Under the pieces are notes generated by a model. The model was not told where the DNA came from. It saw only the letters and a program-made list of their open reading frames with translations, and ran no database searches. From IMG/VR virus record IMGVR_UViG_3300013137_002628, positions 1 through 32,455 of that record: 32,455 bases of DNA. One strand, given 5' to 3'. This stretch comes from a virus. Below are positions 5,082 to 31,966 of the stretch, piece by piece. Numbering within the stretch: the stretch's first letter is position 1; each line of letters opens with the position of its first letter. A program made the translations under genes and the position numbers.

Positions 5082-5083
5082 AA

Positions 5084-5380: not shown

Positions 5381-5516
5381 TATACAAAAATAGGGGGCAT
5401 GTCGCTGCTTTTGACCTCTGCCTGTCTTGGATCAATCAGGGACTCGAGGATCTCGATACAGGGGAAATTGTAGAGAAGGAGCATTAAATCGGGGACAATT
5501 AACAGGAGGGGACAAA

Positions 5517-5846
5517 ATGAGGCCAGAAATTATCGTCGAAGGCATCACAAGGGAAGAAATCAGAAATATCGAGGCGCAATTCCGTCGCTTTGCCTCAACA
5601 TATTGGTGGACACCTCCGCCCACTGCATCGGCCAGGCGAGCTGAAGAATGTAGAAACTCTAACTCCTGGTCGTTCAGTGTGAACGGAGAGCAGGTTGCGT
5701 GCAGCGTAGAAGTCTCCTGCTCGTGCAAAAATTACTACGCAACCAGGGAGATATGGGTCGGGGCAGAACGAAAAAAAATGATGGTCCCCTATCTGGCAAA
5801 ACTTTTAGCGGAGGGGAAATTTAACGATTCACAGGAGGCATTATGA
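5517..5846 (+). CDS. Hypothetical protein, 109 aa, coupled to the AAA ATPase
   Basis: ATG 5517 follows AGGAGGGG; a longer TTG-initiated frame from 5427 has no ribosome binding site. The stop overlaps the ATPase start (ATGA at 5843-5846), so the two are translationally coupled. The middle holds a WWTPPPTAS segment and a cysteine group (CSVEVSCSCKNYY) that could bind a metal. Family unknown; a partner of the ATPase is plausible from coupling alone. Confidence 0.7.
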   Translation: MRPEIIVEGITREEIRNIEAQFRRFASTYWWTPPPTASARRAEECRNSNSWSFSVNGEQVACSVEVSCSCKNYYATREIWVGAERKKMMVPYLAKLLAEGKFNDSQEAL

Positions 5847-7402: not shown

Positions 7403-7420
7403 TCAGAAAGGAGAATGACC

Positions 7421-8302: not shown

Positions 8303-8342
8303 TTACCAGCTGAGCTATCGGCTATACGGGCAGGAGGATAAT

Positions 8343-8675
8343 ATGCCGTGCTATGAAATTAGAACAGTAACAGTGGAATTCAAAATTGAAAATTTTGCAA
8401 TTCTCAAGAAAGCAATTGAAAATGAAGGTTTTCGAATAACAGAAGCATCCGGGACAGAAGGTTACATTGCCTTTAGAAACAAGGCTGAGGATCTATTCAC
8501 AATCAAACTAAAAGAGCAAAACTTCAAAGGAACATTGGATCAAAAACAGATGATCGATCTGTCCAATCAAATCAAACGGGCTTATAGCAGGCAAGTCATC
8601 AGTGAAGTCGCCCAAAATCAAAAGTGGTTTAAAAAAGAAATTCGGGCCAATAATTTTGTCTTGCAAAGATATTAG
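8343..8675 (+). CDS. Ycf35/DUF1257-like protein
   Basis: 110 aa, with an AGGAGG ribosome binding site. The N-terminus (an acidic beta strand followed by AILKKAIENEGF) and the C-terminal segment IKRAYSRQVISEVAQNQKWF, with a final strand ending in LQRY, follow the order of the DUF1257 (Ycf35) family, whose C-terminus reads like YARQVVLEEARRQGF and ends in LRRW. DUF1257 genes are repeatedly found beside Ycf46 ATPases and DUF2997 genes, as here. The molecular role is unknown. The match is good at both ends and weaker in the middle. Confidence 0.65.
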   Translation: MPCYEIRTVTVEFKIENFAILKKAIENEGFRITEASGTEGYIAFRNKAEDLFTIKLKEQNFKGTLDQKQMIDLSNQIKRAYSRQVISEVAQNQKWFKKEIRANNFVLQRY

Positions 8676-16924: not shown

Positions 16925-18484
16925 ATGCTGCGTCGTATTCAAGTTGACAATACTATTGAAGATAAAATCATTACCGCTCTTATTACCTCTACCCAATATT
17001 GTAGAGAAATTCAACCAATCTTTGATAAAAAACTTCTGTCTAATGATTATGTCAAAATTGTAGCAGAATGGACCTTGAGCTATTATAATCAATATAAAAC
17101 TGCTCCTGGCAACAAGATTCAAGATATTTATGATATTGAATCGGGAAAATTAAGGCCTGAAACCGCTGAAATTATATCGAAGTTCCTGGAAAAAATATCC
17201 TCTGAATATGCAATTGATGATTCTTTCAACTATCAATTCTACCTCGATAAAACATTTACATATTTCAAAAAACAAGCATTAAAAAACATGACAGAAAGAG
17301 TTTCGACTTTTCTGGAACTGGATCAAATAGAAGAAGCCGAAAGAGAGATTGATAGCAGAAAGAAGATCCTACTTCAGACCTCTGGTTGGATGTCAGTATT
17401 GACTGAAGAATCGGTGAATCAATTTTTTGTTGATGAAAAAGATAAAACCCATGAATTATTTCGATTGAATGGCGCTGTCGGCAATCTAATCGGTACTTTG
17501 GAAAGAAACTGGCTAATATCCATCTTTGCACCAGCCAAAAGAGGGAAAACATTCTGGCTACAAGAAATTGCGATTCAAGCAATGATGAATAATTTGAAAG
17601 TAGTTTTTATTTCGCTTGAAATGGGTGCTCATCGAGTAAAGAAAAGAATGTACCGTCGACTTTCTGCAATGGGAGATGAATCGAAAAACTATATATTCCC
17701 TTGCTTTGATTGTATGAAAAATCAAGATGGATCTTGCACTAAATCAATAAGAACCAATTCGGAGAGATTATTGAACAATAAAGGCTTAAAACCTCTTTTT
17801 TCAGAATTGATATCATACCGGCCTTGTTCAGTTTGTCGTAGTAAAAATGAAGATTATGCAATAGCAACATGGTTTGAAATGTTTCATGCAAATAAAATGA
17901 ATACAGTATGGGGCAAGAAAAAATTAGTTGCAATCGGTAAAATGTCCCGCAATAATCTAAAATTAAAATCTTACCCGGCATTTTCTGTGAGCTTAACTGG
18001 CCTAAAGCATGATTTAGAAATGCTCGAATACTCCGATGATTTTATTCCTGATGTTATTGTTATCGACTATGCTGATATTCTTGCCCCTGAAGATAACAGG
18101 TCTACAGGGAGAGAGAAAATTGATGAAACCTGGAAATCATTGAAGAATCTTGCTGATTCGAAACATTGTCTGGTTGTCACGGCTTCTCAAACTAACCGGG
18201 GATCGTTCGATAAGAAGAATGTAGTTGCGACAGATGCCGCAGAAGATATTCGTAAAATTGCTCATATTGATCTTGGCATTGCACTAAATCAGTTGCCAGA
18301 GGAAAAGAGAGCAAGCACGATGAGAGTATCGTTAATTGCAGATAGAGATGGAGAATTTGATCAGTTTAAATCGGCAATTGTGCTGCAACAGCTATCCCTT
18401 GGTCAAGCGAATCTGGATAGTGAAATTATAATAGAAAAAGAAAAGGAGGGAAATGAGAATGGAAACGGGAAAAATATTAGCTAA
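16925..18484 (+). CDS. DnaB-family replicative helicase with zinc-finger-like insertion
   Basis: 519 aa. An N-terminal helical domain (1-155) precedes a RecA-like ATPase with Walker A FAPAKRGKT (201-209), SLEMG (230-234), Walker B VIVIDYADI (D381) and a downstream VVTASQTNRG (H3-like). This is the DnaB/phage-helicase core that unwinds DNA ahead of the fork and partners with the primase at 13538. Between the SLEM motif and Walker B there is an insertion of roughly 60-90 residues with CFDC (C260, C263), C271 and CSVC (C301, C304), a four-cysteine zinc site not found in standard DnaB. The C-terminal tail is E/N/K-rich. The end overlaps queD. Confidence 0.88.
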   Translation: MLRRIQVDNTIEDKIITALITSTQYCREIQPIFDKKLLSNDYVKIVAEWTLSYYNQYKTAPGNKIQDIYDIESGKLRPETAEIISKFLEKISSEYAIDDSFNYQFYLDKTFTYFKKQALKNMTERVSTFLELDQIEEAEREIDSRKKILLQTSGWMSVLTEESVNQFFVDEKDKTHELFRLNGAVGNLIGTLERNWLISIFAPAKRGKTFWLQEIAIQAMMNNLKVVFISLEMGAHRVKKRMYRRLSAMGDESKNYIFPCFDCMKNQDGSCTKSIRTNSERLLNNKGLKPLFSELISYRPCSVCRSKNEDYAIATWFEMFHANKMNTVWGKKKLVAIGKMSRNNLKLKSYPAFSVSLTGLKHDLEMLEYSDDFIPDVIVIDYADILAPEDNRSTGREKIDETWKSLKNLADSKHCLVVTASQTNRGSFDKKNVVATDAAEDIRKIAHIDLGIALNQLPEEKRASTMRVSLIADRDGEFDQFKSAIVLQQLSLGQANLDSEIIIEKEKEGNENGNGKNIS

Positions 18485-18839
18485 AAAGAAATTTGAGTTC
18501 CAGGCTGGGCATTATTTACCAAATCATCAGGGAGCCTGCCATCGTCAACATGGACATTCATATCAACTTGAAATTATTATAAAAGGGCCTGTTAGAACAA
18601 AGGGACCGGAGAAAGGAATGATTGTGGATTTCTCCAATCTCAAGCAAATAATTCAAAAAGCTATTCTTGATAAAGTTGATCATCATATGTTGAATGATAT
18701 CTGGGAAAATCCCACCGCGGAAGAGATGGTAGGGTCAATTGCTACGATATTAAAAAAAGAATTACCACGTAATATTGTTTTGGAACAGGTAGAGCTCTAT
18801 GAAACATCCTCTTCATCTGCTATTTGGAGGAATAAATAA
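18459..18839 (+). CDS. queD: 6-carboxytetrahydropterin synthase, QueD
   Basis: 126 aa from ATG 18459 (9 nt after GGAGG; an ATG at 18453 is only 3 nt away from it, so either is possible). It turns dihydroneopterin triphosphate into 6-carboxytetrahydropterin on the way to preQ0. Zinc histidines are visible in QAGHYLP and HRQHGHS, the catalytic cysteine in GACHRQ, the DHHMLND segment, and the C-terminal catalytic E in VELYET. Length is typical. It overlaps the helicase 3' end and the queE start (TAATG), giving a tight queD-queE pair. Confidence 0.93.
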   Translation: METGKILAKKKFEFQAGHYLPNHQGACHRQHGHSYQLEIIIKGPVRTKGPEKGMIVDFSNLKQIIQKAILDKVDHHMLNDIWENPTAEEMVGSIATILKKELPRNIVLEQVELYETSSSSAIWRNK

Positions 18840-19489
18840 TGCGAATTTATGAAATTTTCTCATCAATCAATGGTGAAGTAAACAATTGCTACCAAGGATC
18901 TTTGTGTACTTTTGTCAGAACAGCGGGATGCAATTGTCGATGCGTTGCGTGTGACACAGCAAAAACGCAAGATCCGAAGGCAGGGATTGAAATGCAAATA
19001 AAACCAATTGTAGATAAGGTCATAACTCTTGGATGCAAAAACGTGACTATTACTGGTGGGGAGCCAATGTTGCAGCCAGATTTACAAGATCTTATCTTCT
19101 CTCTTGGCCAAAAGGAATGCAATATCTCAATTGAAACAAATGGATCTTTTCTCATCGAGAAAAATCCAAGGGTGAATTGTTGGATTGTAGATTGGAAAAC
19201 TCCCTCATCGGGTATGAGTCATATGATGAAACTGGAAAATTTCAAGAATCTATATTTTGATGATATTATAAAATTTGTTATCAAAGACAGAAAAGATTTT
19301 GATGAATCGCTAAAAGTTTGCCAAGATTTAAAAAAAATTAATCAATTTTTACCAAAATTCGCATTTTCTCCCTGTTTTGGAGAGATTAATCCAAAAGTAT
19401 TAGTCGAATGGATGTCGGCCGAGCCTTTTCTAAAAAAGCAAGGGGCAGTTTTTTCTTATCAGATTCACAAATTGATCAATGTTGCATAA
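18839..19489 (+). CDS. queE: 7-carboxy-7-deazaguanine synthase, QueE
   Basis: 216 aa radical SAM enzyme that contracts 6-carboxytetrahydropterin to 7-carboxy-7-deazaguanine. The 4Fe-4S cysteines are C31, C35 and C38 in CNCRCVAC, the usual CxxxCxxC; FVRTAGC and TITGGEP are the family's next landmarks. Length and order are as in bacterial QueE. The start overlaps the queD stop by one base and a TTATAAT promoter begins just after its stop. Confidence 0.94.
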   Translation: MRIYEIFSSINGEVNNCYQGSLCTFVRTAGCNCRCVACDTAKTQDPKAGIEMQIKPIVDKVITLGCKNVTITGGEPMLQPDLQDLIFSLGQKECNISIETNGSFLIEKNPRVNCWIVDWKTPSSGMSHMMKLENFKNLYFDDIIKFVIKDRKDFDESLKVCQDLKKINQFLPKFAFSPCFGEINPKVLVEWMSAEPFLKKQGAVFSYQIHKLINVA

Positions 19490-19501
19490 AATATTTTCAT
19501 G

Positions 19502-19526
19502 GAATTTCTCTAAAACAAGTTATAAT
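19502..19526 (+). promoter_or_regulatory. TTATAAT-class promoter, copy 3 (start of the queC module)
   Basis: GAATTT at 19502-19507 (the AAATTT position), then CTCTAAAACAAG and TTATAAT (-10 at 19521-19526), followed by AAAATTGAAAGG. This copy is the closest to the consensus and shares a long downstream block with the copies at 26742 and 30232. The -10 lies 12 nt downstream of the queE stop. Confidence 0.75.
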
Positions 19527-19544
19527 AAAATTGAAAGGAATAAC

Positions 19545-20012
19545 ATGATTTTAAAAATAAATGACTTTTCAATGGATTATGAACAATCAAAGAATAATGT
19601 TATTATGGATATTTTTACATTTCTGCTTGTTCACGCTCAGTATCAATCCCTGGAAACTCTGAAAGAAAATTTGTTATCTTCTTGTGAATTTCTAATAGAA
19701 GGGATTTCAAATGAAATTGATTTTATCAATATGAAAAATAAGACCCGAAGGTCTTATTATTTGCTGCAGAGAAGAAGAATTTCTAAATTTCAAAAACTCA
19801 TTGATAATTTTGAAACAAAAAATCAAATAATCCGGGCCATGTATGATATGTTCATGACAATTGAAAGCATGCCATTATTGCCCGGATTTGGAATGACAAA
19901 TAAATTTGGAGATTGGATCGGACAAAATCCGGAAAGAAGACTTCTACGCGATACGCCCGATGCTTTCTTTACTAAAGGAGGTATTTATGATAATTGCCAG
20001 AATACAAATTGA
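19545..20012 (+). CDS. Hypothetical protein, 155 aa
   Basis: ATG 19545 is chosen because AAAGG and the promoter lie just upstream; a longer in-frame TTG frame would span the promoter. The protein is largely helical (FTFLLVHAQYQSLETLKENLL, then KLIDNFETKNQIIRAMYDMFMTIE). A 9-bp stem with a CGAA loop (19737-19758) lies in the coding region. No motif is recognised. It is the first gene of the module that leads into the two QueC-like proteins and its stop overlaps the next gene by 26 nt. Confidence 0.7.
   Translation: MILKINDFSMDYEQSKNNVIMDIFTFLLVHAQYQSLETLKENLLSSCEFLIEGISNEIDFINMKNKTRRSYYLLQRRRISKFQKLIDNFETKNQIIRAMYDMFMTIESMPLLPGFGMTNKFGDWIGQNPERRLLRDTPDAFFTKGGIYDNCQNTN
19737..19758 (+). other. 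Intragenic perfect hairpin
   Basis: AATAAGACC and GGTCTTATT are perfectly complementary around a CGAA loop, followed by A/T-rich sequence. It is in the coding region of the 155-aa protein, so it may be an mRNA stability or pausing element, or chance. It is not GC-rich enough to be a convincing terminator. Confidence 0.5.
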
Positions 20013-20529
20013 AGAAGCAATTAAGAGGATGAATTTAATTGAATATACAAATGAAAATGGGAAATCTTTTCCAATTTTAAAAAATAAAATTCAGTATAAT
20101 CCCAAAGCTGGGAAAGATGTACTGATCGAATTATTTATGAATGCTTGTGAAGAAATTCCTGAAGGGGCCAACGGAATGCCTTCTCCTCAAGAAGCCGTAT
20201 TACCAGATGAAATTGTACTTCTATATAATGCTTTGGTGGATGGAGAGGGCGTAGTAGTTACCAAGGAAACGGTTTTATCAACATCAACAAATAAGAATAT
20301 CTTTGGCCACAGAATTAAATCACAATCGGCAAAAATCGACGAGTTATTAATAACCGGCGCTACTCTTACTTATGAAGAAATTGTCAATAAAACCGGTTGT
20401 CAGTATGCAAGACTTTCTCCGTATATTAAATATCTGGAAACTGATAAAGGCGCAGTATTTTTAAAAACCAGAACTGGAGATAAGAAAAGTATTATACAAA
20501 TAAAACTTGAAAGCTGGCCAGGGAAATGA
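19987..20529 (+). CDS. Hypothetical protein, 180 aa
   Basis: ATG 19987 follows AAAGGAGG at good spacing and overlaps the previous gene by 26 nt. The first part (IEEAIKRMNLIEYTN) is helical; the C-terminal half has TLTYEEIVNKTGCQYARLSPYIKYLE, which reads as a helix-turn-helix of the winged type found in DNA-binding proteins. The family is unknown. It is co-transcribed with the HAD-like and QueC-like genes, so an operon regulator or a DNA-modification accessory is possible. Confidence 0.7.
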   Translation: MIIARIQIEEAIKRMNLIEYTNENGKSFPILKNKIQYNPKAGKDVLIELFMNACEEIPEGANGMPSPQEAVLPDEIVLLYNALVDGEGVVVTKETVLSTSTNKNIFGHRIKSQSAKIDELLITGATLTYEEIVNKTGCQYARLSPYIKYLETDKGAVFLKTRTGDKKSIIQIKLESWPGK

Positions 20530-20780
20530 AAATATACGCAATTGATTTTGATGCAACGGCTAAATTATTCCCAGAAAAAGTTAACTTTCTCTATGAAAAT
20601 AAAAATAATTTTATTATCATTCACACTGCCCGTAGTTCTGCAATTCGCGACCTGACGGAAAAGGAACTAAAAACCATAGGAATCAAGTATCATGCCTTGG
20701 TAATGGATAAAATCAGGGCAGATGTTTTTATTGATGACCGCAATGAAGGAGGATTAAAATGGCCAGAAGACGTATTCTGA
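20526..20780 (+). CDS. Short HAD-like phosphatase-fold protein
   Basis: 84 aa; ATG overlaps the previous stop by 4 nt. HAD motif I is seen as AIDFDAT (D-x-D), motif II as IHTARSS (T/S), a lysine in VMDKIRAD and motif IV as FIDDRN. The motifs are all in the right order but compressed; a typical HAD phosphatase has 150 or more residues and a cap. Such mini-HAD proteins occur in many phages beside nucleotide or DNA genes. Substrate unknown. Confidence 0.7.
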   Translation: MKIYAIDFDATAKLFPEKVNFLYENKNNFIIIHTARSSAIRDLTEKELKTIGIKYHALVMDKIRADVFIDDRNEGGLKWPEDVF

Positions 20781-21466
20781 TGTTTAGTGCGGGTCTTGAT
20801 TCATATGCAATCAAGAAGCTTTATCATTTTAAAGACGAGGAATGTTTATTCTTAATAACGGGAACAGAAGACAATAAGCAAGAATTAGAGCTTATTATGG
20901 AACTTTTCCCGGCAATAAATTTATACTCTTTGCCAATAGTCAATTTTGAACTTGAGAATAAAATCATTCCATTTCGAAATCATTTGATGGCTTTAATTGC
21001 CGCTCAGTATGGAAATGAAATTTGGTTTGGTTTTACTGCTGGGGATACCACGAAAGATAAAGACTATGTTTTCAAAGCTCAGATAGAAGACATACTAAAC
21101 TACTTTTCTATAGATGAAGAAAAAGTAGTCTATAAAGCACCATATTCAATCTCAATGCCATTTAAAGAGATGACCAAGACACAGATTGTAAAACGCTTTC
21201 TTGATGATTTTTCGTCAGACCTTTTGTTTTCGGAAACAAGAAGTTGTTATTCTGGAAATTCAATTATGGAATGCGGGGTTTGCAGAAGTTGTTTGAGAAA
21301 ATTTGTTGCCGTATCTTTAAATGAGATTCCAGATAGCAACCTGCATTTCCAAAATGATCCGGTACCAAAACTGAAAGAATTCTATTATGAATGCTTATCA
21401 AAAAACAGAAAAAATGAAATAAAGGAGGTAGAAGCATGTTGCAAAAAGTATGGGGTTACCATTTAA
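20759..21466 (+). CDS. Divergent QueC-like PP-loop protein, copy 1
   Basis: 235 aa. The ATP PP-loop is MFSAGLDSYAI. The QueC zinc motif C-x8-C-x2-C-x2-C is exact (CYSGNSIMECGVCRSC). Canonical QueC features are weak: the YGQ motif is absent and the RN of the GRN segment is seen as IPFRNHLMALIAA. QueC converts 7-carboxy-7-deazaguanine to preQ0 using ATP and ammonia. With a second, more canonical copy at 22170, this copy may act at another step, for instance on the nitrile or on another acid substrate. GGAGG lies before the ATG, and the end overlaps the SpeD-like fusion gene. Confidence 0.75.
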   Translation: MARRRILMFSAGLDSYAIKKLYHFKDEECLFLITGTEDNKQELELIMELFPAINLYSLPIVNFELENKIIPFRNHLMALIAAQYGNEIWFGFTAGDTTKDKDYVFKAQIEDILNYFSIDEEKVVYKAPYSISMPFKEMTKTQIVKRFLDDFSSDLLFSETRSCYSGNSIMECGVCRSCLRKFVAVSLNEIPDSNLHFQNDPVPKLKEFYYECLSKNRKNEIKEVEACCKKYGVTI

Positions 21467-22185
21467 TACTCAATTTGAAAAAGTGTAATGATAATGTAAC
21501 AAGGAAAGAGAACATCTATGATTTTGTAAAAGACCTGGTGCCGAGTATTGGAATGGTAGCTTATGGGCAACCAATTATTGAACACTTTGCTGAGCAGGTT
21601 CCAGAGGCCGCCGGATATTCTCTGGTTCAGCTAATTGAAACCTCGGCTATAACGGGTCATTTCTCTGATTTAACTTGTGATGCATATATTGACATCTTTT
21701 CTTGCAAAAAGTTTGATAAGGAGCTTGCTATCGGCAAAATTCGCGAACATTTTGCCCCTTCTTTAATCCAGGAATTGTTTTTAGAAAGAGATGCTGCGAT
21801 TATCCCCGTTCAAATGACTGTAATTCCCGATAAGAGAGAAATTCAAACAGGAACCTGTAATGGCTGTGGAATATGTTGTCACAGCGATGCAATTATTGTC
21901 AAGGAAGAAGGGATTTCTCATTTTTTAGATCTACATGGAATGGATTATCCAGAAGGAGTAGAACAGTTGCTTCCGGTTATGTTAAAAAAACTCGATAAAA
22001 ATACAATTCAATTCACACTGTTTGAAAGATGCAAAAACGCAAAAAATGAAGATTCAAAAACAATATGTGGAGATTACAAAAATCGACCTGAAAAATGCCG
22101 CAAATTTCCAAGCAGCAGTTTTCAGATAAGGCAAATCCCTCAATGTTCATATAAGTTCAAGGAGGAGAAATGGGTAGAGCCATAA
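21436..22185 (+). CDS. SpeD-like / YkgJ-like two-domain fusion
   Basis: 249 aa. Residues 1-125 read as the AdoMet-decarboxylase fold: WGYHLILNLKKC, then GYSLVQLIETSAITGHF (60-76) where the self-processing serine of SpeD would lie (T69/S70), and AYIDIFSCKKFD. Residues 138-249 read as the YkgJ-type metal domain: CNGCGICC (C141, C144, C147, C148), then C199, C211, C221 and C237. True SpeD makes decarboxylated SAM for polyamines. Here it sits inside the deazaguanine genes between two QueC-like proteins, so a pyruvoyl-dependent decarboxylase acting on a deazaguanine is possible (inference). AAAGGAGG lies 7 nt before the ATG, which overlaps the preceding gene. Confidence 0.7.
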   Translation: MLQKVWGYHLILNLKKCNDNVTRKENIYDFVKDLVPSIGMVAYGQPIIEHFAEQVPEAAGYSLVQLIETSAITGHFSDLTCDAYIDIFSCKKFDKELAIGKIREHFAPSLIQELFLERDAAIIPVQMTVIPDKREIQTGTCNGCGICCHSDAIIVKEEGISHFLDLHGMDYPEGVEQLLPVMLKKLDKNTIQFTLFERCKNAKNEDSKTICGDYKNRPEKCRKFPSSSFQIRQIPQCSYKFKEEKWVEP

Positions 22186-22853
22186 TGGTCACGGGTGGAA
22201 TTGATTCCACTTTACTTATGTATGAAGCCAAGAAACTGGAGCAACGACCAATTCTTTTATCGGCCAACTATGGTCAGTTAACATGGGAGAAGCAGGAAGA
22301 ATTGATTAATTACCATGCTGCAATACTTGGATTTGACCAGGTCATCGCTATTGATTACATGTATAACCACAAATGGCAGCTTACTTCTGCTGGATTATTT
22401 CAGACAAAATTTGTTCCTGCTAATAAAGACCCTCTTGGTAGTTGGGATAAAATCTTACATGAGGACTATTATATTGAGGGAAGAAATGCCATTATGTTGC
22501 TTTATGCCATTGCCTGGTGTTCTGCTCATCAAGTAAGCGAATTGCAGGTTGGCTATGAGTATGAAGAAGATGAATGGAAGAATACCAGGTCTTACAAAAT
22601 GATTACCGACGATACATCGCCACATTTTGTCGATGCAATTAATCTACTTGCTATTACCGGATTTAAGCATCATGTCCGGGTAAGGGCTCCATTTCTGGAA
22701 CGGAGAATGGATAAAAAAGCAATTCTGGCAAAGTATAAACAATTTAACATTGATATTGAAAAAACGTATTCATGCTATTTTGTTCCAGAATGCGGGGTTT
22801 GTGAAAATTGTTTACTTAAAAAAGACGCAATAAAATCTCTGAAATTTCAATAA
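22170..22853 (+). CDS. queC: QueC, 7-cyano-7-deazaguanine synthase, copy 2
   Basis: 227 aa. PP-loop VTGGIDSTLL, YGQ motif (SANYGQ), YIEGRNAIMLL (the GRN segment), and a C-terminal C-x5-C-x2-C-x2-C zinc site (CYFVPECGVCENC). This is the more canonical of the two QueC-like proteins and is the best candidate for preQ0 formation from 7-carboxy-7-deazaguanine. AAGGAGG lies before the ATG and the start overlaps the SpeD-like gene by 16 nt. The next promoter (copy 4) lies directly after its stop. Confidence 0.88.
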   Translation: MGRAIMVTGGIDSTLLMYEAKKLEQRPILLSANYGQLTWEKQEELINYHAAILGFDQVIAIDYMYNHKWQLTSAGLFQTKFVPANKDPLGSWDKILHEDYYIEGRNAIMLLYAIAWCSAHQVSELQVGYEYEEDEWKNTRSYKMITDDTSPHFVDAINLLAITGFKHHVRVRAPFLERRMDKKAILAKYKQFNIDIEKTYSCYFVPECGVCENCLLKKDAIKSLKFQ

Positions 22854-22866
22854 AGCAAGTTATAAT
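22842..22866 (+). promoter_or_regulatory. TTATAAT-class promoter, copy 4 (folE-dpdA)
   Basis: AAATTT at 22842-22847, then CAATAAAGCAAG and TTATAAT with -10 at 22861-22866. The box starts inside the queC end. The downstream block differs (ACAAATAGGAGG) but still places the ribosome binding site right after the expected start point. Confidence 0.7.
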
Positions 22867-22883
22867 ACAAATAGGAGGTAATC

Positions 22884-23468
22884 ATGTCCGACGATCATTT
22901 ATCAGAAAAACACAAGATAATTTTAGAACAGCTTAAATTTATCGGGGAAAATCCGGAAAGAGAAGGATTAAGAGACACCCCAAAAAGAGTTGTAAAAGCC
23001 TGGGATGAATTATTCGCCGGTTATAATCAAGATCCAAAAGACCTCTTTACGGTTTTTAAGGAAGACAATATTAGTGGCTTGATTTATCTCAAGAACATCG
23101 AATTCTACTCAACGTGTGAACATCATCTTCTGCCCTTCTCCGGCCAGGCCCATATTGGATACATTCCGAATGGTAAAGTAATTGGAATTAGCAAACTGGC
23201 CAGGCTCTTGGATGTTTTTTCAAAGAGACTTCAAATTCAGGAAAGAATAGCAGAACAGGTGACAGATGCTATAATGACTCACTTGGAACCCCTTGGAGCT
23301 GCCTGTATTATTGAAGCAAAACATCTATGTATTGCCTGTAGAGGGATAAAGAAACAACATTCAATTATGGGATATTCATCCATGAAAGGAATCTTTCTGG
23401 AAGATTCGCATAAAGGGGTTGCTGCCAGAAATGAATTCACAAGATTGGTAATGATGAAAGGAGAGTAA
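22884..23468 (+). CDS. folE: GTP cyclohydrolase I
   Basis: 194 aa. Converts GTP to dihydroneopterin triphosphate, the first step toward preQ0. The family markers are complete: NPEREGLRDTPKRV, STCEHHLLPF with C78 and H81 as zinc ligands, GISKLARLLDVFSKRLQIQE, and KHLCIACRG with the third zinc cysteine (C149). Length is typical for FolE1. AGGAGG precedes the ATG. It is separated from queD-queE by 3.4 kb but likely uses the same promoter class, so the pathway is switched on together. Confidence 0.96.
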   Translation: MSDDHLSEKHKIILEQLKFIGENPEREGLRDTPKRVVKAWDELFAGYNQDPKDLFTVFKEDNISGLIYLKNIEFYSTCEHHLLPFSGQAHIGYIPNGKVIGISKLARLLDVFSKRLQIQERIAEQVTDAIMTHLEPLGAACIIEAKHLCIACRGIKKQHSIMGYSSMKGIFLEDSHKGVAARNEFTRLVMMKGE

Positions 23469-24461
23469 ATGTCTCAAAAAAATCTCGGTCTGTTTTTAGA
23501 TTCTGGAGCATATTCGGCGTATTCTACTGGAGTCCCGGTTAATTTGGGGGAATATGCCAATTTTATTAAAGGTCTCCAAAAAATTACAGATGGATTAACA
23601 GTGTATGCAAATCTTGATGTAATTGGCGATCCTGAAGCAACACTGGCCAATCAAAAGCAAATGGAAGAATGGGGATTGAACCCACTACCTTGTTTTCATT
23701 GTGGAGAAGATTTTAATCTTCTAAAAACTTATGTCAAGAAATATGATTATATTGCTTTGGGGGGAATGGTTACATCTGACAGAGCTTTAATAGGAAACTT
23801 TCTTGAAAAAGCCTGGAATATTATTTGTGGTACTTCGGATAGAATGCCTCAGTGTAAAGTTCATGGATTTGGAATGACGTCTCTTGATCTAATGTTTAAA
23901 TACCCCTGGTGGTCAGTCGATAGCACAGCCTGGGTCATGATTAGCCGGACAGGTGGAGTTCTTATTCCTAAAAAAGTTAATGGCAAGTATGATTATCACC
24001 AGAGTCCATGGAAAATCAGTGTTTCAAATAAATCACCCAGTGTTAAAATGGAAGGAGAACATTTTTCTTCAAAAACTTTAATGGAACAAGCTGTTTTTCT
24101 TAACTATTTTGAGGAAAAAGGATTCAAGATGGGCAAATCAGAATTTAAAACTGAATCCAGAAGAGGAGATAAATCAAAAGGAATTCCTCCATATGAATTA
24201 AAAGAAAATGAGAAATGGTGGGGTAAAGAAGAAGCAGATTTACAAAGAATGAAATCTACGATAACAGGTAAAGAGGGATATGTCTCATGGGGATGGGGAG
24301 AGGATGACATGGTTGAAATTATTATTGAACCAGGGCTATCCAATGATTATAAAATGAGAGATAAAATGAATGTAATTTACTATGGTGATCTTCAGGAGCA
24401 ATTTCCTCCTTGGCCTTGGCCTTACATTGTTACAAAAAGGAAAGGATTTGGATTAATATGA
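23469..24461 (+). CDS. dpdA: DpdA-like DNA guanine transglycosylase
   Basis: 330 aa. Members of this TGT-like TIM-barrel family insert 7-deazaguanine bases into DNA in place of guanine. Visible landmarks: LFLDSGAYSAYSTGV (D11), YANLDVIGDPEAT, NPLPCFHCGEDF, IALGGMV, KVHGFGMTSLDLMFKYPWW and SVDSTAW (D151, the likely nucleophile). The C-terminal third is W/E/K-rich and divergent. It starts at the LDSGAYS strand, so the first beta-alpha unit found in longer DpdA proteins may be missing. The ATG follows the folE stop directly, with GAAAGGAG upstream. Confidence 0.85.
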   Translation: MSQKNLGLFLDSGAYSAYSTGVPVNLGEYANFIKGLQKITDGLTVYANLDVIGDPEATLANQKQMEEWGLNPLPCFHCGEDFNLLKTYVKKYDYIALGGMVTSDRALIGNFLEKAWNIICGTSDRMPQCKVHGFGMTSLDLMFKYPWWSVDSTAWVMISRTGGVLIPKKVNGKYDYHQSPWKISVSNKSPSVKMEGEHFSSKTLMEQAVFLNYFEEKGFKMGKSEFKTESRRGDKSKGIPPYELKENEKWWGKEEADLQRMKSTITGKEGYVSWGWGEDDMVEIIIEPGLSNDYKMRDKMNVIYYGDLQEQFPPWPWPYIVTKRKGFGLI

Positions 24462-24625
24462 TTATCTATCTTGCAACATGGGCCGAAGATAATCAGGGAG
24501 ATACCCTTAGTAAAGGACGGTGCAAAAATCGCCTACTATCTTATTTCTTCTTAAAAGATCTTGGACCGGAATGGTTAAAAGAATACATTGAGAAATCCAA
24601 TAGAATCATGAATGAAGGAGTATAG
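24458..24625 (+). CDS. Short MIIYLA-type protein, 55 aa (paralogue of the 25649 gene)
   Basis: Starts at an ATGA overlap with the dpdA stop. The N-terminal strand MIIYLA and the LLSYFFLKD segment match the same positions (MIIYLA, LISYF) in the protein at 25649, so the two are likely paralogues. The strand-helix-strand order looks like the first unit of a DpdA-type barrel, which the neighbouring DpdA appears to lack. Whether this is a detached subunit or a coincidence is open. Next is the sliding clamp, 1 nt away. Confidence 0.6.
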   Translation: MIIYLATWAEDNQGDTLSKGRCKNRLLSYFFLKDLGPEWLKEYIEKSNRIMNEGV

Positions 24626-24626
24626 A

Positions 24627-25652
24627 ATGTTAATAAAAACCGAAGATTTCAAGAAAATACTGCAGACAATTAAACCAGCTATTTCAAAAAGAGAAGTTGT
24701 AGAACAATCTACTCATTTTATTTTTACGGGGACAGATGCTACGGCTTACAATGATCGGATTTGCATTAGTTATCCTTGCGAAAGCGATTTTGTTTGTTCG
24801 GTAAATTCTGATGATATGAGCCGTATTATTAATGGTTTTTCATCTACCGACATTGAAATCACCATGAAAGATAATCAGCTTCAAGTGAAAGGTAAAAAGG
24901 CACGCTCTGGATTGGCTTGTATTGAAGAGGGTCCAATAATGAAAATGATACAGGATCTAAATACAAAAAATTTACTGAAAAATTACAAATGGTATAATCT
25001 CCCTGCAGAGTTTAATGAAGCTTTGAATCTTTGTTTGTTTTCGGCATCTAAAGATGTTTCTCTGGTAGAATTATCCTGCTTGTCCATTTCAAATAAAGGA
25101 ATCATATCATCAGATAATCTCCGAATCAGTTCTTATAGTTTGTCGATCGATGTCCCAAGAGATTTTTTGATTCCTTTATCTTCAGCTGAAGAATTAGCAA
25201 AAATCAAAGTCACCAAGCTCTTACTAACCGAGGCATGGGCCCACTTTGCTACTGAAGAAAACATCATTTTTAGTTGTCGTATTGTTTCTGCAGAATATCC
25301 TGATGTATTTGAATTCTTCGAGATGACTGATGCTATGAAATTAGAAATGCCAAAGAATTTGAAGAAAACTATCGATTCCATTATTTTTAGTGTAGAAGGG
25401 GATATTGATATCGATAAAAAAATGCAGTTAACTATTACAGATAATAAAATTTGTTGTAGAGCCGAGAAACAGAATTGCTGGATTGAACAGGATATTGATA
25501 TCGAATATAATTCAGAAACTATTCAATTTGACATCAATCCGATTTTTCTCGCGCAGATTCTTGAGAAAAGCACAACAATGAAAATCGAACCTGGCAAGGC
25601 ATTATTTGAATCGGGTGATAATTTTAAACACGTGATGGCCATGCCGATATGA
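24627..25652 (+). CDS. dnaN: Beta sliding clamp (DnaN-like)
   Basis: 341 aa from ATG 24627, 6 nt after GAAGGAG. Ring-shaped processivity factor for the phage polymerase III. The N-terminal start MLIKTEDFKKILQTIKPAIS is typical; strands with FIFTGTDATAYNDRI, the middle-domain LLTEAWAHFATEEN and SCRIVSAEYPDVFEFF resemble the three-domain DnaN fold, and it ends VMAMPI in the place of the usual VMPM(R/K)L. Slightly shorter than the 366 aa of E. coli DnaN. Its stop overlaps the next gene (ATGA). A clamp loader and polymerase follow, so it is probably a functional phage clamp. Confidence 0.85.
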   Translation: MLIKTEDFKKILQTIKPAISKREVVEQSTHFIFTGTDATAYNDRICISYPCESDFVCSVNSDDMSRIINGFSSTDIEITMKDNQLQVKGKKARSGLACIEEGPIMKMIQDLNTKNLLKNYKWYNLPAEFNEALNLCLFSASKDVSLVELSCLSISNKGIISSDNLRISSYSLSIDVPRDFLIPLSSAEELAKIKVTKLLLTEAWAHFATEENIIFSCRIVSAEYPDVFEFFEMTDAMKLEMPKNLKKTIDSIIFSVEGDIDIDKKMQLTITDNKICCRAEKQNCWIEQDIDIEYNSETIQFDINPIFLAQILEKSTTMKIEPGKALFESGDNFKHVMAMPI

Positions 25653-25846
25653 TAATTTATCTTGCAGGATCGTCAGGATTAAACGTGAGAGAAGCCTTAT
25701 TGGTCAATAGTCATCGTTTGATATCTTATTTTAACATAAATGAGAGAAATCTTTATTACAGGCTAAAACTGCAAGGGAAACTAAAATATGATCCAGAGAG
25801 ACAAGAGTCAGCCGCTGCATCTGAAATATCGTCCGAAGACATTTGA
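25649..25846 (+). CDS. Short MIIYLA-type protein, 65 aa
   Basis: Starts at an ATGA overlap with the clamp stop. It shares MIIYLA and LISYF with the 24458 gene. The C-terminal 20 residues are read through the start region of the clamp-loader gene in another frame (overlap 59 nt), and are E/S-rich. It is retained as a real gene because of the shared motif and the tight coupling; function unknown. Confidence 0.55.
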   Translation: MIIYLAGSSGLNVREALLVNSHRLISYFNINERNLYYRLKLQGKLKYDPERQESAAASEISSEDI

Positions 25847-26723
25847 TGAATTCATCGGTAATGAAGCGACTATTGAAGCTTTAAAAAGCGTTGTATCCAG
25901 AACCAGTGGAGAAGTCAGAAGCTTCTTATTTACCGGACCATCGGGTTGTGGAAAAACTACATTGGCCAGAATAGTTGCCTCTGAATTAAATTGTCAGGCC
26001 AAAGATATTTACGAATACAATTCTGCCAATACCAGAGGGATAGATACTATTAGAGAGATTGCTCAATCATCCCGATATCTCCCTCTGGGGGGCAAAATAA
26101 AGGTTTATTTATTGGACGAGATACATAAAGCCACAGCCGATGCCCAGAATGCCTTATTAAAACTTTTAGAGGATACTCCAAAGCATATCAGATTCATTCT
26201 ATGTACAACCGATCCAGAAAAACTAATCAAAACAATCAAGACCAGATGCTCTACATTTACTGTATCCTCTCTCCAGAGATCTAAAATAATGAAACTTCTT
26301 CATTGGATCTGCTCTGAAGAAAAAGTTAAAGTGGAGGAAGCCGTTTTACAAAAAATTGCTGAATGCTGCGATGGTAGTGCTCGACAGGGAATCGTATTTC
26401 TTGACCAGATTATTGATATTGAAAATCAAGAAACAGCCCTGCAGGCTATTGTTGATGCTACAGTCCAAGATTCTTCCATTAAAGATTTAATTCAGAAGCT
26501 TCTCCAGCCAGGAATTTCATGGAAAACATTAACCCCGATTATTAAGAGCCTGGATGAAGAGCCAGAGCAGATCAGAAGAGCAATTCTTGGATATTGTGAA
26601 AAGGTTATGCTTGATTCTCCTAATGAAAGACTTTGCAGTATTATTGAAATCTTCTGGGATAGTTGGACGTATGTCGGAAGAGCAGGGTTGATTCGATCAT
26701 GCTACCGCGCATTAAATCTATAA
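25788..26723 (+). CDS. Clamp loader ATPase (DnaX/RFC-like)
   Basis: 311 aa. Opens and loads the sliding clamp. LHLKYRPKTFDEFIGNE starts the AAA+ domain, followed by Walker A GPSGCGKT (50-57), NTRGIDTIREI, Walker B LLDEIHKA (D110, E111), ILCTTDPEKL and the arginine-finger sequence TRCSTF. A helical lid and collar follow. The four-cysteine zinc module of bacterial DnaX is absent and no separate delta or delta-prime gene is seen, so the loader may be homomeric or use host subunits. The start overlaps the previous gene by 59 nt and has only a weak ribosome binding site. Confidence 0.9.
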   Translation: MIQRDKSQPLHLKYRPKTFDEFIGNEATIEALKSVVSRTSGEVRSFLFTGPSGCGKTTLARIVASELNCQAKDIYEYNSANTRGIDTIREIAQSSRYLPLGGKIKVYLLDEIHKATADAQNALLKLLEDTPKHIRFILCTTDPEKLIKTIKTRCSTFTVSSLQRSKIMKLLHWICSEEKVKVEEAVLQKIAECCDGSARQGIVFLDQIIDIENQETALQAIVDATVQDSSIKDLIQKLLQPGISWKTLTPIIKSLDEEPEQIRRAILGYCEKVMLDSPNERLCSIIEIFWDSWTYVGRAGLIRSCYRALNL

Positions 26724-26765: not shown

Positions 26766-29700
26766 ATGTTCAATTCTGAATTTTGTCATCTTCATGTCCA
26801 CAATGAATACAGCATTTTAGATGGATATGGATCTGCAGATTCTTACGTTAAAAAAGCTAAAGGACTTGGATTTATTGCTCTTGGCTTAACAAATCATGGT
26901 AATATTGATGGATTGATTCAATTTCAAAAAGCCTGCGATAAGATTGGTTTGAGTCCGATTCTGGGTTGTGAGGCATACATTGTTCCCAACTTAACAATAA
27001 AAGAAAAGAAAGAATCACGAGGCCACATCACTCTTCTTATCAAGAATCAAGTTGGATATGAAAATCTGTGTAAAATGCTGTCTAAAGCGAATTTGGATGG
27101 GTTTTATTATAAGCCCAGAATTGATTTTGATCTCTTGATAAATAACTGTGAAGGTTTAGTGATCCTTACTGGATGCGGTTCATCTTTTTTGAATCTGCCC
27201 GGTGGGGAAGACTGCCTGACTGAGATATACAAAAAACAGCCAGAAGATATTTACTTTGAAATTATGCCTCACAATTTGCAATCTCAAATTCAGATCAATG
27301 AAAAATGTGATTATCTTTCTAAGCAATATTCGTTAAAATATGTCGCAACCAATGATTGCCATTTTATAGATTATGAAGATCATACAGTACATGAGGTTCT
27401 TCTTGCTGTGCAGACTAATGCAAAATGGAATGATTCTAACCGATTCAGATTTGAAGTCAAGGGTTTGCATTTGAGAACAGTACAAGAGATGATCGCCACA
27501 TTTAAAGAACAGGGATATTTTGATAGAAAATTCGTAATTGAAGCAATAAAAAATACCATGGAAATTGTAGAAAAATGCAAAAACTTCCGGATCATCAAAA
27601 AAGAAATGTATCTTCCTCAAGTTCCAGGTTATGAAGATAAAAATCCCTCCGAATTCCTTTATGATCTCTGCGAAAAAAGGTTGTTAGAACTGTCAAAGGC
27701 AGAGAATTGGACAATTGAAAAACTGAATTTCTATTTCGAAAGATTATCTTCGGAATGGAAACTCATCAATGATAAAAAATTTGCACAATATTTCATGATT
27801 GTATGGGAAACGGTGAAATGGTGCAGAAAAAATAATATTCTGACCGGGCCCGGCAGGGGCTCCGCCGGGGGAAGCCTTATTGCGTATCTTCTTGATATCA
27901 CTTGCGTAGACCCTATTTCTTATGGATTGTTATTTTCAAGATTTATTGCAGAAGACAGGATTGATTATCCAGATATTGACACGGACTTCGAGGATAGAAA
28001 AAGAGACCAGGTTAGAGAACATCTCGAACAATTGTATGGCAAAAATAACGTAACTTCTATTTCTACCTTCCTAACAATGAAAGGAAGAGCAGCCATAAGA
28101 GACGTGGCAAGAGTATTTGAATTACCAATGAAAGAAACAGATGAATTTGCCAAATCTATTGAAAGTATTGAAGATGACAATCATGATTCGATTGAAAGAT
28201 GTATTGAAAAAACAGATATTGGTAAATCTTTTAACACAAAATATCCCGAACAAGTTAAAATTGCTATAAAATTGGAAGGCCAAATCCGCGGTCAAGGACA
28301 ACATGCAGCTGGAGTGGTAATATCAGCAGATGATCTTACACAGGGATCGCGAGGAAATTTGGTTGCCAGATCAAATCAAATTGTTATTAACTGGGGAATG
28401 TCGGATTCAGAACATGTTGGCTTGGTAAAACTTGATATACTGGGATTAAATGCTCTCTCGATTCTATCTGAAACAAAGAAATTAGTATTGGAAAATACTG
28501 GATTAAAAATTGATTTTCCAAAAATTCCATTAAATGATCCAAAAGTTTATGCCGAAATTTCTGCGGGGAATACTACCGGAGTATTTCAGTTAAATACCTG
28601 GTCAACGTCAAAGCTGGCAAAAGAAATCAAGTGTAAAAATATTTTAGAATTGAGTGATATTATTGCTCTTGTAAGACCGGGGCCAAGCGACAGTGGCATG
28701 ACGTCTGATTATATAAAAAGAAAAGAATCCGGACATAGAAGAAAGGAAACGAAAGAATATGAAGAAATCGTAGGCACTACTCATGGTATTATTATTTATC
28801 AAGAACAGATTATGCAGGTAATTTACAAAATTGGTGGATTGTCCTATTCTGTTGCCGATAAAATTAGAAAAGTTATTTCCAAGAAAAGAGACGTAAAACA
28901 ATTTGAGCCCTTTAGAATTATGTTTTTGGAAGGATGTGCAAAAAAGAAAATATTTTCCCAGCAGCAAGCTGAGAAGTTTTGGGAGATGTTGCTTGCTCAT
29001 AGCCGTTATAGTTTCAATCTATCTCATAGTGTTTCCTATTCTATTTTGGCTTATTGGACCGCATGGTGCAAATATTATTATCCCACAGAATTCATTTGTG
29101 CCAATTTGTCTTTTGGATCAGAAGGGAAAAAGGAAGAAATTATCAAAGAAGCAAAAAGAATCGGATTAAATATCGTGTTCCCCAAAATTGGAGTTTCTGA
29201 TCCTTTGCTTTGGAAAGCAAAAGACAATAATCTTTATATCCCATTTGTGGAGATAAAAGGCATTGGTGAAAAAACAGCTTTAAGTGTCCCAGTTGAGAGA
29301 AAAGAAAAACCAAAAAATGAAAAAACACCGGTTGTTGTAAAACCAACACTAAAAGGATTCTTCTTCTCAACTCCTGAAAAGAGAAAAGAAGTAAAGATTG
29401 AAAAAGAGAAAGAAGAATCAAAATCCAAGCTTGAAAAGGTCTTGGAGGACATTGAAAAAATAGTCGAGGCTGGAGATCAAGATAGGCTAAAAAAATATTT
29501 TACCTTTGATATTTCAATCAAAAAAGAAGAAAAATTGAAATATCCCTTACTTATGAAGAAAGTTCCAATGGCATTTACTGATCAAGATTTATCTAAAATC
29601 CAAAAACTTGATTTACCCCGGGATTATATGAAAGGAGTGATTCAGAAGAAATCTTATTCTCTGTCATCCGAATTAATAAACTGTACAGATTGCAAGCTTT

Positions 29701-30212
29701 GTTATGAAACTGTTTATGGACCAGTAGAACCTTCTCCAGGAACTTATAATGTTATGGTTGTCGGAGAAGCCCCGGGAGCAGAAGAAGATGAAAGGGGAGC
29801 AGGCTTTATTGGCAAATCTGGCGAATTGCTTTGGCAAAAATTGTCGGTCCATAGACTTCAAAGAGAAGATTTTCACATTACAAATGTTTGTAAATGCTAC
29901 CCTTCTCAAACTAAAACCCCAACAATTGACCATATAGATATTTGTAGAAAATGGATTGAAGATGAAATTAAACAAACGAATGCTTGTCTTATCCTTTCTT
30001 TTGGGAATACCGGATTGAGATTCTTCACTGGGAAAGATAGCGGCATTACTTCTTTAAATGGAACGACTGTATGGTCAGAAGAATTCAATGTTTGGATATG
30101 TTGGTGTATCCATCCCTCTTCTGTTTTGAGAAATCCTGGTAATAAAAGATTATTTGAAGATGGGATAAGAAATTTCTCAGAAAAAATTGCAGTACTTGGG
30201 GATTTTATTTAA
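26766..30212 (+). CDS. dnaE: DNA polymerase III alpha subunit fused to family-4 uracil-DNA glycosylase
   Basis: 1148 aa. PHP domain (1-270): HLHVHNEYS, LTNHGNIDG, GCEAY and ATNDCHF-EDHTVHE keep the metal-binding pattern. Polymerase core: PGRGSAGGSLIAYLLDIT, catalytic PDIDTDF, KLDILGL (third Asp), FQLNTWSTSKLAKEI and SYSILAYWTAWCKYYYPTEF; a helix-hairpin-helix (VEIKGIGEKTA) ends it near residue 838. Then comes a charged linker (with TLKGFFFS at 861-868) and, from C973, a UDG4 domain: CTDCKLC, GEAPGAEEDERGAGF (from 1000), CKCYP, C1060, and HPSSVLR (H1116). The OB and tau-binding C-terminus of DnaE is absent. It would copy DNA and excise uracil in one polypeptide. Promoter copy 5 drives it. Confidence 0.92.
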   Translation: MFNSEFCHLHVHNEYSILDGYGSADSYVKKAKGLGFIALGLTNHGNIDGLIQFQKACDKIGLSPILGCEAYIVPNLTIKEKKESRGHITLLIKNQVGYENLCKMLSKANLDGFYYKPRIDFDLLINNCEGLVILTGCGSSFLNLPGGEDCLTEIYKKQPEDIYFEIMPHNLQSQIQINEKCDYLSKQYSLKYVATNDCHFIDYEDHTVHEVLLAVQTNAKWNDSNRFRFEVKGLHLRTVQEMIATFKEQGYFDRKFVIEAIKNTMEIVEKCKNFRIIKKEMYLPQVPGYEDKNPSEFLYDLCEKRLLELSKAENWTIEKLNFYFERLSSEWKLINDKKFAQYFMIVWETVKWCRKNNILTGPGRGSAGGSLIAYLLDITCVDPISYGLLFSRFIAEDRIDYPDIDTDFEDRKRDQVREHLEQLYGKNNVTSISTFLTMKGRAAIRDVARVFELPMKETDEFAKSIESIEDDNHDSIERCIEKTDIGKSFNTKYPEQVKIAIKLEGQIRGQGQHAAGVVISADDLTQGSRGNLVARSNQIVINWGMSDSEHVGLVKLDILGLNALSILSETKKLVLENTGLKIDFPKIPLNDPKVYAEISAGNTTGVFQLNTWSTSKLAKEIKCKNILELSDIIALVRPGPSDSGMTSDYIKRKESGHRRKETKEYEEIVGTTHGIIIYQEQIMQVIYKIGGLSYSVADKIRKVISKKRDVKQFEPFRIMFLEGCAKKKIFSQQQAEKFWEMLLAHSRYSFNLSHSVSYSILAYWTAWCKYYYPTEFICANLSFGSEGKKEEIIKEAKRIGLNIVFPKIGVSDPLLWKAKDNNLYIPFVEIKGIGEKTALSVPVERKEKPKNEKTPVVVKPTLKGFFFSTPEKRKEVKIEKEKEESKSKLEKVLEDIEKIVEAGDQDRLKKYFTFDISIKKEEKLKYPLLMKKVPMAFTDQDLSKIQKLDLPRDYMKGVIQKKSYSLSSELINCTDCKLCYETVYGPVEPSPGTYNVMVVGEAPGAEEDERGAGFIGKSGELLWQKLSVHRLQREDFHITNVCKCYPSQTKTPTIDHIDICRKWIEDEIKQTNACLILSFGNTGLRFFTGKDSGITSLNGTTVWSEEFNVWICWCIHPSSVLRNPGNKRLFEDGIRNFSEKIAVLGDFI

Positions 30213-30791: not shown

Positions 30792-30945
30792 TGCCCTTTA
30801 CTACGGTGCCATATCATTTATCGCTTTATTTGGTTTATATCTTCTCGTAAGAGTTTTAACCAAAGCAGCATTTAAAAGTTATTTTGAAACAAAAAAAGAG
30901 TTTAATAATCACAAAAAAGAAAAGGAGGATAACCATGAAGTTTGA
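30775..30945 (+). CDS. Small single-pass membrane protein, 56 aa
   Basis: A frame from ATG 30775 to TGA 30945, behind AAGGGA, overlaps the UvsY-like gene end and the SSB start. Residues 7-30 (ALYYGAISFIALFGLYLLVR) form a clear transmembrane helix, followed by a basic, then E/K/N-rich cytoplasmic-type tail. Small membrane peptides are common in phages (holin-like or membrane-anchoring). A holin role is not supported by neighbours; tethering replication or recombination to the membrane is conceivable. Confidence 0.5.
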   Translation: MKITVDALYYGAISFIALFGLYLLVRVLTKAAFKSYFETKKEFNNHKKEKEDNHEV

Positions 30946-31966
30946 TCGTATCAAAGCAAAAGAACAATTGGCAAAAAGAACAGAGGATAACTATAACAGA
31001 AAGGATGGTGATCTCAATTTTAAATTTTTTAATCCGGCCGTGGAATTGAAATTATGGCAACCAAGGCCTACAAAAGACACTCCCCATCTAATAGATATTA
31101 TCCCATTTCTTGCGGGTAAGAATTACCCCATGCTGAATCCTCGCAATCCAGTCAAAGAAGGAGATTATTGCTATGTTTTGGAGTTGTATGTTCATCAAGG
31201 TATTGGCCCAGGGAAGGCATGGGTAATTTGCCCTTCCAAAAATTACAAAAAACCTTGTCCTATTTGCGAAGATATTGATGCCCGAGTTGCCGAAGGCGAA
31301 GAATATGATACTTACTCGGCTATTGCTTTAAAGCGTCGATGTGTTTATAATGTTCTGGTTTACAGCAATAATGAAGAGAAAAAAGGCGTTCAGATATGGG
31401 AGGTATCTCATAAATACTCCGAGAAGCCGATTCTTCTCCAGGCACGATCCCCTCGCACTGGTGGGTATGAGCCATTCTCTGACGTTGATAACGGGAAAAG
31501 CATTTCCTTTGAAATTGCTAATGATGAATATAAAACAGTACAAGGCCACAAATTTGTTAACCGTGATTACAAGATTTCCGATGATATATTGGATCAAGCA
31601 AAAACATTGGATGAAATAGTAAAAGTTTATTCATATGATGAGATTTCAAAGATGTACTTCAGTCATAGTGGACAGGAAAATGAAACCGATGAGGTGAGTT
31701 CGACCAGACGTGAAAGCCGCACCGAGGAGAAAAAAGAAGAGAAAATAGAGGCATCCATCCTTGGCACTGGATGCCCTGCAAATGGTAAATTTGGAGAAGA
31801 CATTGATCAGCTCGATAATTGTAATAACTGCAAACAATACAATTCTTGTGCAGCAGAGAATGAAGAAATTGAAAAAAAGAAACGTCAAGCCAGACAACAG
31901 AGAATGACTCAAGAATCTGGTACAGAGAATGGGGGAAGAATTGCGAGACGCCAGAGGGGAGAATAA
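30935..31966 (+). CDS. Single-strand DNA-binding protein, gp32-like, with zinc sites
   Basis: 343 aa from ATG 30935, 7 nt after AAGGAGG. The N-terminal basic start and the core with FFNPAVELKLWQPRP and CPSKNYKKPCPICE (a zinc-ribbon-like Cys set), then RRCVYNVLVYSNN, agree with phage T4 gp32-type SSBs that have an OB fold and zinc finger. The tail carries a second cysteine group (GCPANGKF and CNNCKQYNSC), then a charged E/K/R end, in place of the acidic tail of classical SSBs. It would coat the lagging strand and work with the recA-like gene downstream. Confidence 0.8.
   Translation: MKFDRIKAKEQLAKRTEDNYNRKDGDLNFKFFNPAVELKLWQPRPTKDTPHLIDIIPFLAGKNYPMLNPRNPVKEGDYCYVLELYVHQGIGPGKAWVICPSKNYKKPCPICEDIDARVAEGEEYDTYSAIALKRRCVYNVLVYSNNEEKKGVQIWEVSHKYSEKPILLQARSPRTGGYEPFSDVDNGKSISFEIANDEYKTVQGHKFVNRDYKISDDILDQAKTLDEIVKVYSYDEISKMYFSHSGQENETDEVSSTRRESRTEEKKEEKIEASILGTGCPANGKFGEDIDQLDNCNNCKQYNSCAAENEEIEKKKRQARQQRMTQESGTENGGRIARRQRGE

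Follow-up and report, generated by a model that had tools for sequence, protein, structure and literature searches.

The 32,455-nucleotide stretch of viral DNA analysed here (the window; IMG/VR record IMGVR_UViG_3300013137_002628) contains, at positions 26766–30212 of the plus strand, a gene that joins a DnaE-type (family C) DNA polymerase to a C-terminal family-4 uracil-DNA glycosylase (UDG), so that a replicative polymerase carries an excision-repair enzyme in the same chain, beside a likely clamp contact. This arrangement raises the question of what a replicase would do with a tethered glycosylase, and, before that, of whether the two parts truly form one protein.

Architecture and active site of the fused protein

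The gene is a single open frame with an ATG start and no internal stop, encoding a protein of 1148 residues in which all four Pfam domains score far above cut-off. A PHP domain (residues 8–165, 26787–27260; PF02811, 125.9 bits) is followed on the plus strand by the palm/catalytic region (DNA_pol3_alpha, residues 316–560, 27711–28445; PF07733, 254.6 bits) and the fingers (DNA_pol3_finger, residues 564–727, 28455–28946; PF17657, 147.7 bits), with the UDG match (PF03167, residues 994–1128) reaching 84 bits against a cut-off of 24.3, and the full UDG domain spanning about residues 966–1144 (29661–30197) from the combined Pfam, phmmer, and Foldseek results. The palm region holds the motif PDIDTDF (residues 402–408) and D557, with D403, D405, and D557 invariant in the homologue alignments, and a helix-hairpin-helix (IKGIGEK..., residues 830–842, 29253–29291) is recognised from the sequence and its conservation in these alignments. 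The PHP, palm, and finger domains in order, the catalytic aspartates, and a fold match to Thermus aquaticus DnaE are the features of a family-C polymerase. The bacterial enzymes (T. aquaticus 2hpi, E. coli 5fkv) share the PHP, palm, fingers, and helix-hairpin-helix and can be aligned to residues 4–846 (phmmer against the PDB), with the full-length AlphaFold2 model (mean pLDDT of 83) matching 2hpi over about 900 columns at 32% identity in Foldseek and the T. thermophilus UDG 1ui1 at its C-terminus. The fusion of DnaE and UDG4 in one open frame, as proposed in an earlier note made from the sequence alone, is therefore borne out by the open frame, Pfam, AlphaFold, and Foldseek.

Bacterial DnaE also possesses an OB fold and a tau-binding domain, whereas the window protein has the UDG in their place, with no Pfam match other than UDG found after the fingers. 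The OB fold and tau-binding domain are accessory in bacterial DnaE and are not required for family-C membership, and other phage DnaE proteins, L032–L035 among them, likewise stop before this region. The absence of the OB fold described in the earlier note holds for the window protein, but may not extend to about a dozen fusions (L031, L036, L190, L191, L196, L199, L202, L206, L219, L221, L223, and L224) that carry ~100 extra residues between the clamp-like motif described below and the UDG, often including GGVYGN/F.DDT, an insert that gives no Pfam match over cut-off and is possibly an OB remnant. Nor is the stretch from the helix-hairpin-helix (near residue 838) to the UDG the simple linker that had been described, as a helical remnant of the helix-hairpin-helix region (residues 870–902) and a conserved motif (residues 905–914) intervene.

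That two adjacent genes were joined by an assembly or annotation artefact is extremely improbable. Nothing was found in its favour; in the related contig L193 the DnaE is split into several frames, probably through sequencing errors. A second contig, IMGVR_UViG_3300013125_000116, the sole match in a single-sequence search of IMG/VR, matches 6088 bp running through the join, gap-free and with 2 mismatches (99.97%), and the same architecture is found in about 43 distinct, divergent IMG/VR proteins (whole-protein identity of 32–52% to the window protein among those aligned) and in two Rhizobium phages. As the second contig may stem from the same site as the window, the recurrence of the family is the stronger argument against an artefact. 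A search with the DnaE alignment, blind to the UDG, recovered 13 fused contigs, all carrying the UDG domain, and a UDG-seeded search raised this total to about 43. The false join that the earlier note had asked to be looked for is thus refuted, and its suggestion that other DnaE–UDG4 fusions be sought yielded this family and the Rhizobium phage RHEph10. Recurrence in dozens of uncultured phages indicates that the arrangement is genuine, ancient, and subject to selection.

The C-terminal domain closely resembles stand-alone family-4 enzymes. T. thermophilus UDG (1ui0) aligns with residues 966–1125 (phmmer against the PDB, 1.5e-25), and AlphaFold modelling of residues 800–1148 with 13 homologues gave a mean pLDDT of 81, with values >90 across most of the UDG. 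T. thermophilus UDG4 was the top-ranked Foldseek match to this model (TMt 0.84, 1.7 Å), and overall the matches to 1ui1 (TMt 0.84–0.86, rmsd 1.6–1.7 Å) were better than those to UdgX or TDG, giving residues ~966–1144 the UDG4 fold that structure prediction had been proposed to check. Identity with UdgX was rejected, since the alignment has a gap opposite the KRRIH insert with the cross-linking His109 and the structural match is poorer. The T. thermophilus and T. maritima enzymes (1ui0/1ui1, 1l9g/1vk2) share with the window protein the fold, the Fe-S cysteines, and the GE.PG, Phe, Asn, and HP elements, but act as stand-alone proteins. Residues 844–876 and 920–954 are modelled with pLDDT <50, and the UDG is therefore probably tethered flexibly to the polymerase.

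The UDG4 signature is complete, comprising motif A (GE[AG]PG), Phe, Asn, and motif B (HP[SA]). The cysteines C973 and C976 (29682–29693; kept in 43/45 sequences), with C979 beside them, C1044 (29895–29897; 43/45), and C1060 (29943–29945; 42 of the 44 readable rows) are as the earlier note had listed them, and C973, C976, C1044, and C1060 line up with those of 1ui0 and phage UDG4s in UDG4 spacing. The same is true of motif A, GEAPG (residues 1000–1004, 29763–29777), and motif B (H1116–S1118, 30111–30119), where the window protein reads HPSS from residue 1116. E1001 is kept in 41 of 45 alignment rows, the active-site N1040 (TN..KCYP, 29883–29885) in 41/45, and the motif B histidine in 40 of 44 readable rows; such counts are biased upwards by the use of the GE.PG and TN..KC.P motifs in the UDG-seeded search, although the histidine, C973, C976, and C1060 were not part of the seeds. 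The catalytic histidine is absent from four sequences that bear the domain. Judged by their residues, catalysis is evidently lost in L034, probably lost in L028 (N to T, H to N), and clearly lost in the Rhizobium phages RHEph10 and RHph_Y2_11, so that in these few lineages the domain can have no more than a binding or structural role.

The Rhizobium phage proteins (RHEph10 gp048, AGC36092.1 in JX483881.1; RHph_Y2_11, QIG75658.1) likewise consist of a single chain in which a DnaE-type polymerase is followed by a UDG-superfamily domain at the C-terminus, with gp048 scoring 38.8 bits against Pfam UDG and carrying the GenBank note ‘uracil-DNA glycosylase-like’. In the DnaE tree their polymerase sits next to the fused clade, and they are 28% identical overall to the window protein, but their UDG lacks the four cysteines, the Asn, and the catalytic His (FNPGE instead), no clamp-like motif is found by the regular expression used here, and the phage has a dUTPase. 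The earlier note had mentioned only fusions of UDG to A-family polymerases; these do exist, with PolA–UDG fusions published for PaBG gp205 and the Lupandier group (PMC7412058) and deposited for Thermus phage phiLo (PDB entry 9qhs), but they are not the only kind, the RHEph10 DnaE–UDG protein having already been annotated. The PolA fusions share with the window protein a polymerase and a UDG4-like domain in cis, but are of family A with the UDG N-terminal, whereas the window protein is of family C with the UDG C-terminal and falls on a separate side of the UDG tree. The PHROG family phrog_4335 covers both the DnaE and UDG domains with no function assigned. No paper on a DnaE–UDG fusion was found in the open-access literature searched, and neither uracil nor UDG is mentioned in a 2024 survey of DNA polymerase swapping in Caudoviricetes; the fusion is thus apparently undescribed in the literature. 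The apparent novelty is that the clade is widespread and has an intact active site, with an apparently single origin, repeated loss, and the UDG positioned behind a clamp-like peptide.

A clamp-like peptide ahead of the glycosylase and the history of the fusion

The motif at residues 905–914, QDRLKKYFTF (29478–29507), is a candidate clamp-binding peptide picked out by its conservation. A match to [LIVAM]xx[YLFM]FxF lies between the helix-hairpin-helix and the UDG in 29/44 fusions, where shuffling of the linkers would give 1.1, an excess that reflects conservation rather than independent trials, as the 44 fusions are related; several further fusions carry near-misses. Three relatives, L032, L033, and L035, share 44–46% identity in the core, show no UDG at any point of their (partial) records, and end exactly at the clamp-like peptide, their C-termini reading QDLRTFKQFFIF, QDLREFRSYFIF, and QDLKTYKEYFIF before the stop (pattern QDLRxFxxYFIF). 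In the fused proteins this peptide is internal, with the UDG behind it. As the relatives devoid of UDG end at the peptide, the UDG of the fused proteins probably sits directly behind a clamp-binding element. A similar peptide, KKASLFDMFDF, terminates RB69 gp43 (read from its record), the C-terminal tail of which binds the RB69 clamp. GFF at residues 864–866 was set aside as an alternative clamp motif, since it aligns with DF of the HhH_6 region in other DnaEs, and the motif at 905–914 is preferred because it forms the C-terminus in the sisters without UDG.

A likely partner for this motif is encoded upstream, with the phage sliding clamp (processivity factor) at 24612–25652 on the plus strand recognised through phrog_947 (2e-32); its match to DNA_pol3_beta_2 is weak (18.2 bits, below cut-off) and its sequence matched nothing in the PDB. 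The polymerase gene is further flanked, on the same strand, by a clamp loader ATPase (25788–26723; phrog_5846, 5.9e-65) and a gp32-like single-strand binding protein (30884–31966; PF08804), both syntenic. The set of TGT, clamp, loader, one further gene, gp32-like single-strand binding protein, and RecA is common to most fused contigs of sufficient length.

The DnaE tree holds 41 fused sequences and 4 unfused ones nested among them, and requires 3 changes, which can be read as one gain and two losses of the UDG, one in the L032/L033/L035 group and one in L037, sister to L028, in what is a quick tree with a very short branch bringing in RHEph10 and L073. In the UDG tree the DnaE-fused domains lie on one side of a branch with support of 78, which separates them from the PolA-fused and the free phage UDGs, the placement of the long-branched L003, L034, and L073 being unsure. 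Together, the trees fit a single origin of the fusion and at least two later losses of the UDG. As regards a bacterial origin, none of the best 80 contig loci listed aligned past residue 879. Pairwise dN/dS is 0.13–0.20 in the UDG (three measurable pairs) and 0.09–0.10 in DnaE (two pairs), and the UDG domain is under purifying selection. Between L029 and L038 (both 5001–8423), dS is 0.38 in the UDG part and 0.04 in the DnaE core, which suggests that the UDG end was exchanged by recombination.

Proposed function of the tethered glycosylase

The explanation we favour, at a probability of about 0.6, is uracil excision that is coupled to replication and takes place next to the clamp. A family-C replicase would carry a working family-4 UDG directly behind its clamp-binding peptide; the polymerase would run on the phage clamp whilst the UDG tethered to it surveys the DNA at the fork, excising uracil misincorporated from dUTP or formed by cytosine deamination, and the resulting abasic site would be handed to host base-excision repair. 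We infer the glycosylase activity, the clamp binding, the coupling to replication, the strand that is cleaned, and the hand-over to host repair from the fold, the conservation of the active site, selection, trees that fit a single origin, the adjacency of the motif, and synteny. The suggestion of the earlier note that the replicase strips its own template or product of uracil is plausible, given the conservation of the catalytic and Fe-S residues in nearly all homologues and the purifying selection. There is precedent for delivering a UDG to the replication machinery, with human UNG2 and PCNA and the vaccinia D4-A20-E9 assembly described in PMC8053108 and PMC4450493, the former indicating that tethering to PCNA permits rapid post-replicative removal of uracil; these are family-1 UDGs, held non-covalently or bridged by another protein, and are functional analogies only. 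Counting against coupled excision, removal of uracil from a single-stranded template ahead of the polymerase would leave a blocking abasic site, some close relatives exist without any UDG, and four fusions lack the catalytic histidine. The 22 fused-phage records, mostly fragments, yielded no AP endonuclease (PF01261 over cut-off, PF03372), so that completing the repair would fall to the host.

The degenerate members point to another possibility, in which the UDG serves chiefly to bind DNA or confer processivity, standing in for an OB fold and C-terminal domain that have been lost, with glycosylase activity secondary, much as vaccinia D4 serves independently of catalysis in the poxvirus holoenzyme (PMC4450493, PMC1936997). 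In L034, L028, and the RHEph10 pair the domain persists with its catalytic histidine gone, and in the RHEph10 pair with all four cysteines gone as well; the window protein has no OB match. However, pure binding would not need the histidine and asparagine kept in 40/44 and 41/45 sequences, the sisters devoid of UDG replicate with the clamp-like peptide only, the phage encodes its own clamp and loader, and some fusions retain extra residues between the motif and the UDG. As a general account this is unlikely, a structural or processivity role being favoured for the degenerate members only. Somewhat less likely again is a role as a uracil sensor, with the domain binding template uracil and stalling or redirecting the replicase so that uracil-containing DNA stays uncopied. 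Archaeal family-B polymerases sense template uracil through a read-ahead pocket. UDG4 folds bind uracil specifically, the uracil-pocket residues are conserved, and domain and polymerase share one chain, but sensing alone requires neither conserved catalytic residues nor a long flexible linker, and the low-confidence linkers described above give no fixed read-ahead geometry.

An adaptation to the nucleotide pool, in which the UDG limits the harm of high dUTP arising from host pool defences or from a missing phage dUTPase, is improbable. In its favour, no PF00692 dUTPase was found in 21 fused, mostly partial records, in which PF08761 gives only matches below cut-off, whereas RHEph10, with its degenerate UDG, has a dUTPase; against this, the records are mostly fragments and the contrast, taken from a single genome, is suggestive only. 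The earlier note's rationale that uracil removal is useful where dUTP is high is thus weakly supported by the absence of a dUTPase family over cut-off in these records. Returning to coupled excision, a broader proposal, to which we give a little less than even odds, is that the fusions represent a widespread, single-origin lineage of family-C replicases in which an active UDG4 behind the clamp peptide lets the replisome clean its own uracil, substituting for a phage dUTPase or a free UDG, with the UDG module lost and swapped independently of the core. The family supplies natural controls in its intact fusions, catalytically degenerate fusions, and UDG-less sisters ending in the clamp-like peptide, so that whether a replicase benefits from coupled uracil removal, or uses the UDG as a DNA-binding module, can be tested directly. 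The family could also yield a polymerase that cleans uracil during synthesis.

Other genes in the window and in other phages

Upstream of the clamp gene, the window encodes QueD, QueE, two QueC-like proteins, FolE, and a TGT/DpdA-like protein (18453–24461), a 7-deazaguanine pathway that suggests the phage DNA is modified with 7-deazaguanine; FolE also occurs in 6/21 fused IMG/VR records. Within this queuosine-type cluster, a single frame at 21436–22185 combines an S-adenosylmethionine decarboxylase-like domain (9–113) with a CxxCxxCC metal-binding domain (141–228). In L033, the TGT-like gene (290–2830) occupies an unusually long frame of 847 residues and may be a further fusion. The DnaE of Rhodococcus phage Dorin (L017, 1498–5298) has about 160 extra residues before SHSVAYS, an insert that starts with Cys, ends with HN, and looks like an intein. 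At 348–1904 on the minus strand, the window encodes a 518-residue protein with a PF18823 inorganic pyrophosphatase domain at its N-terminus and minor-head/structural PHROG matches.
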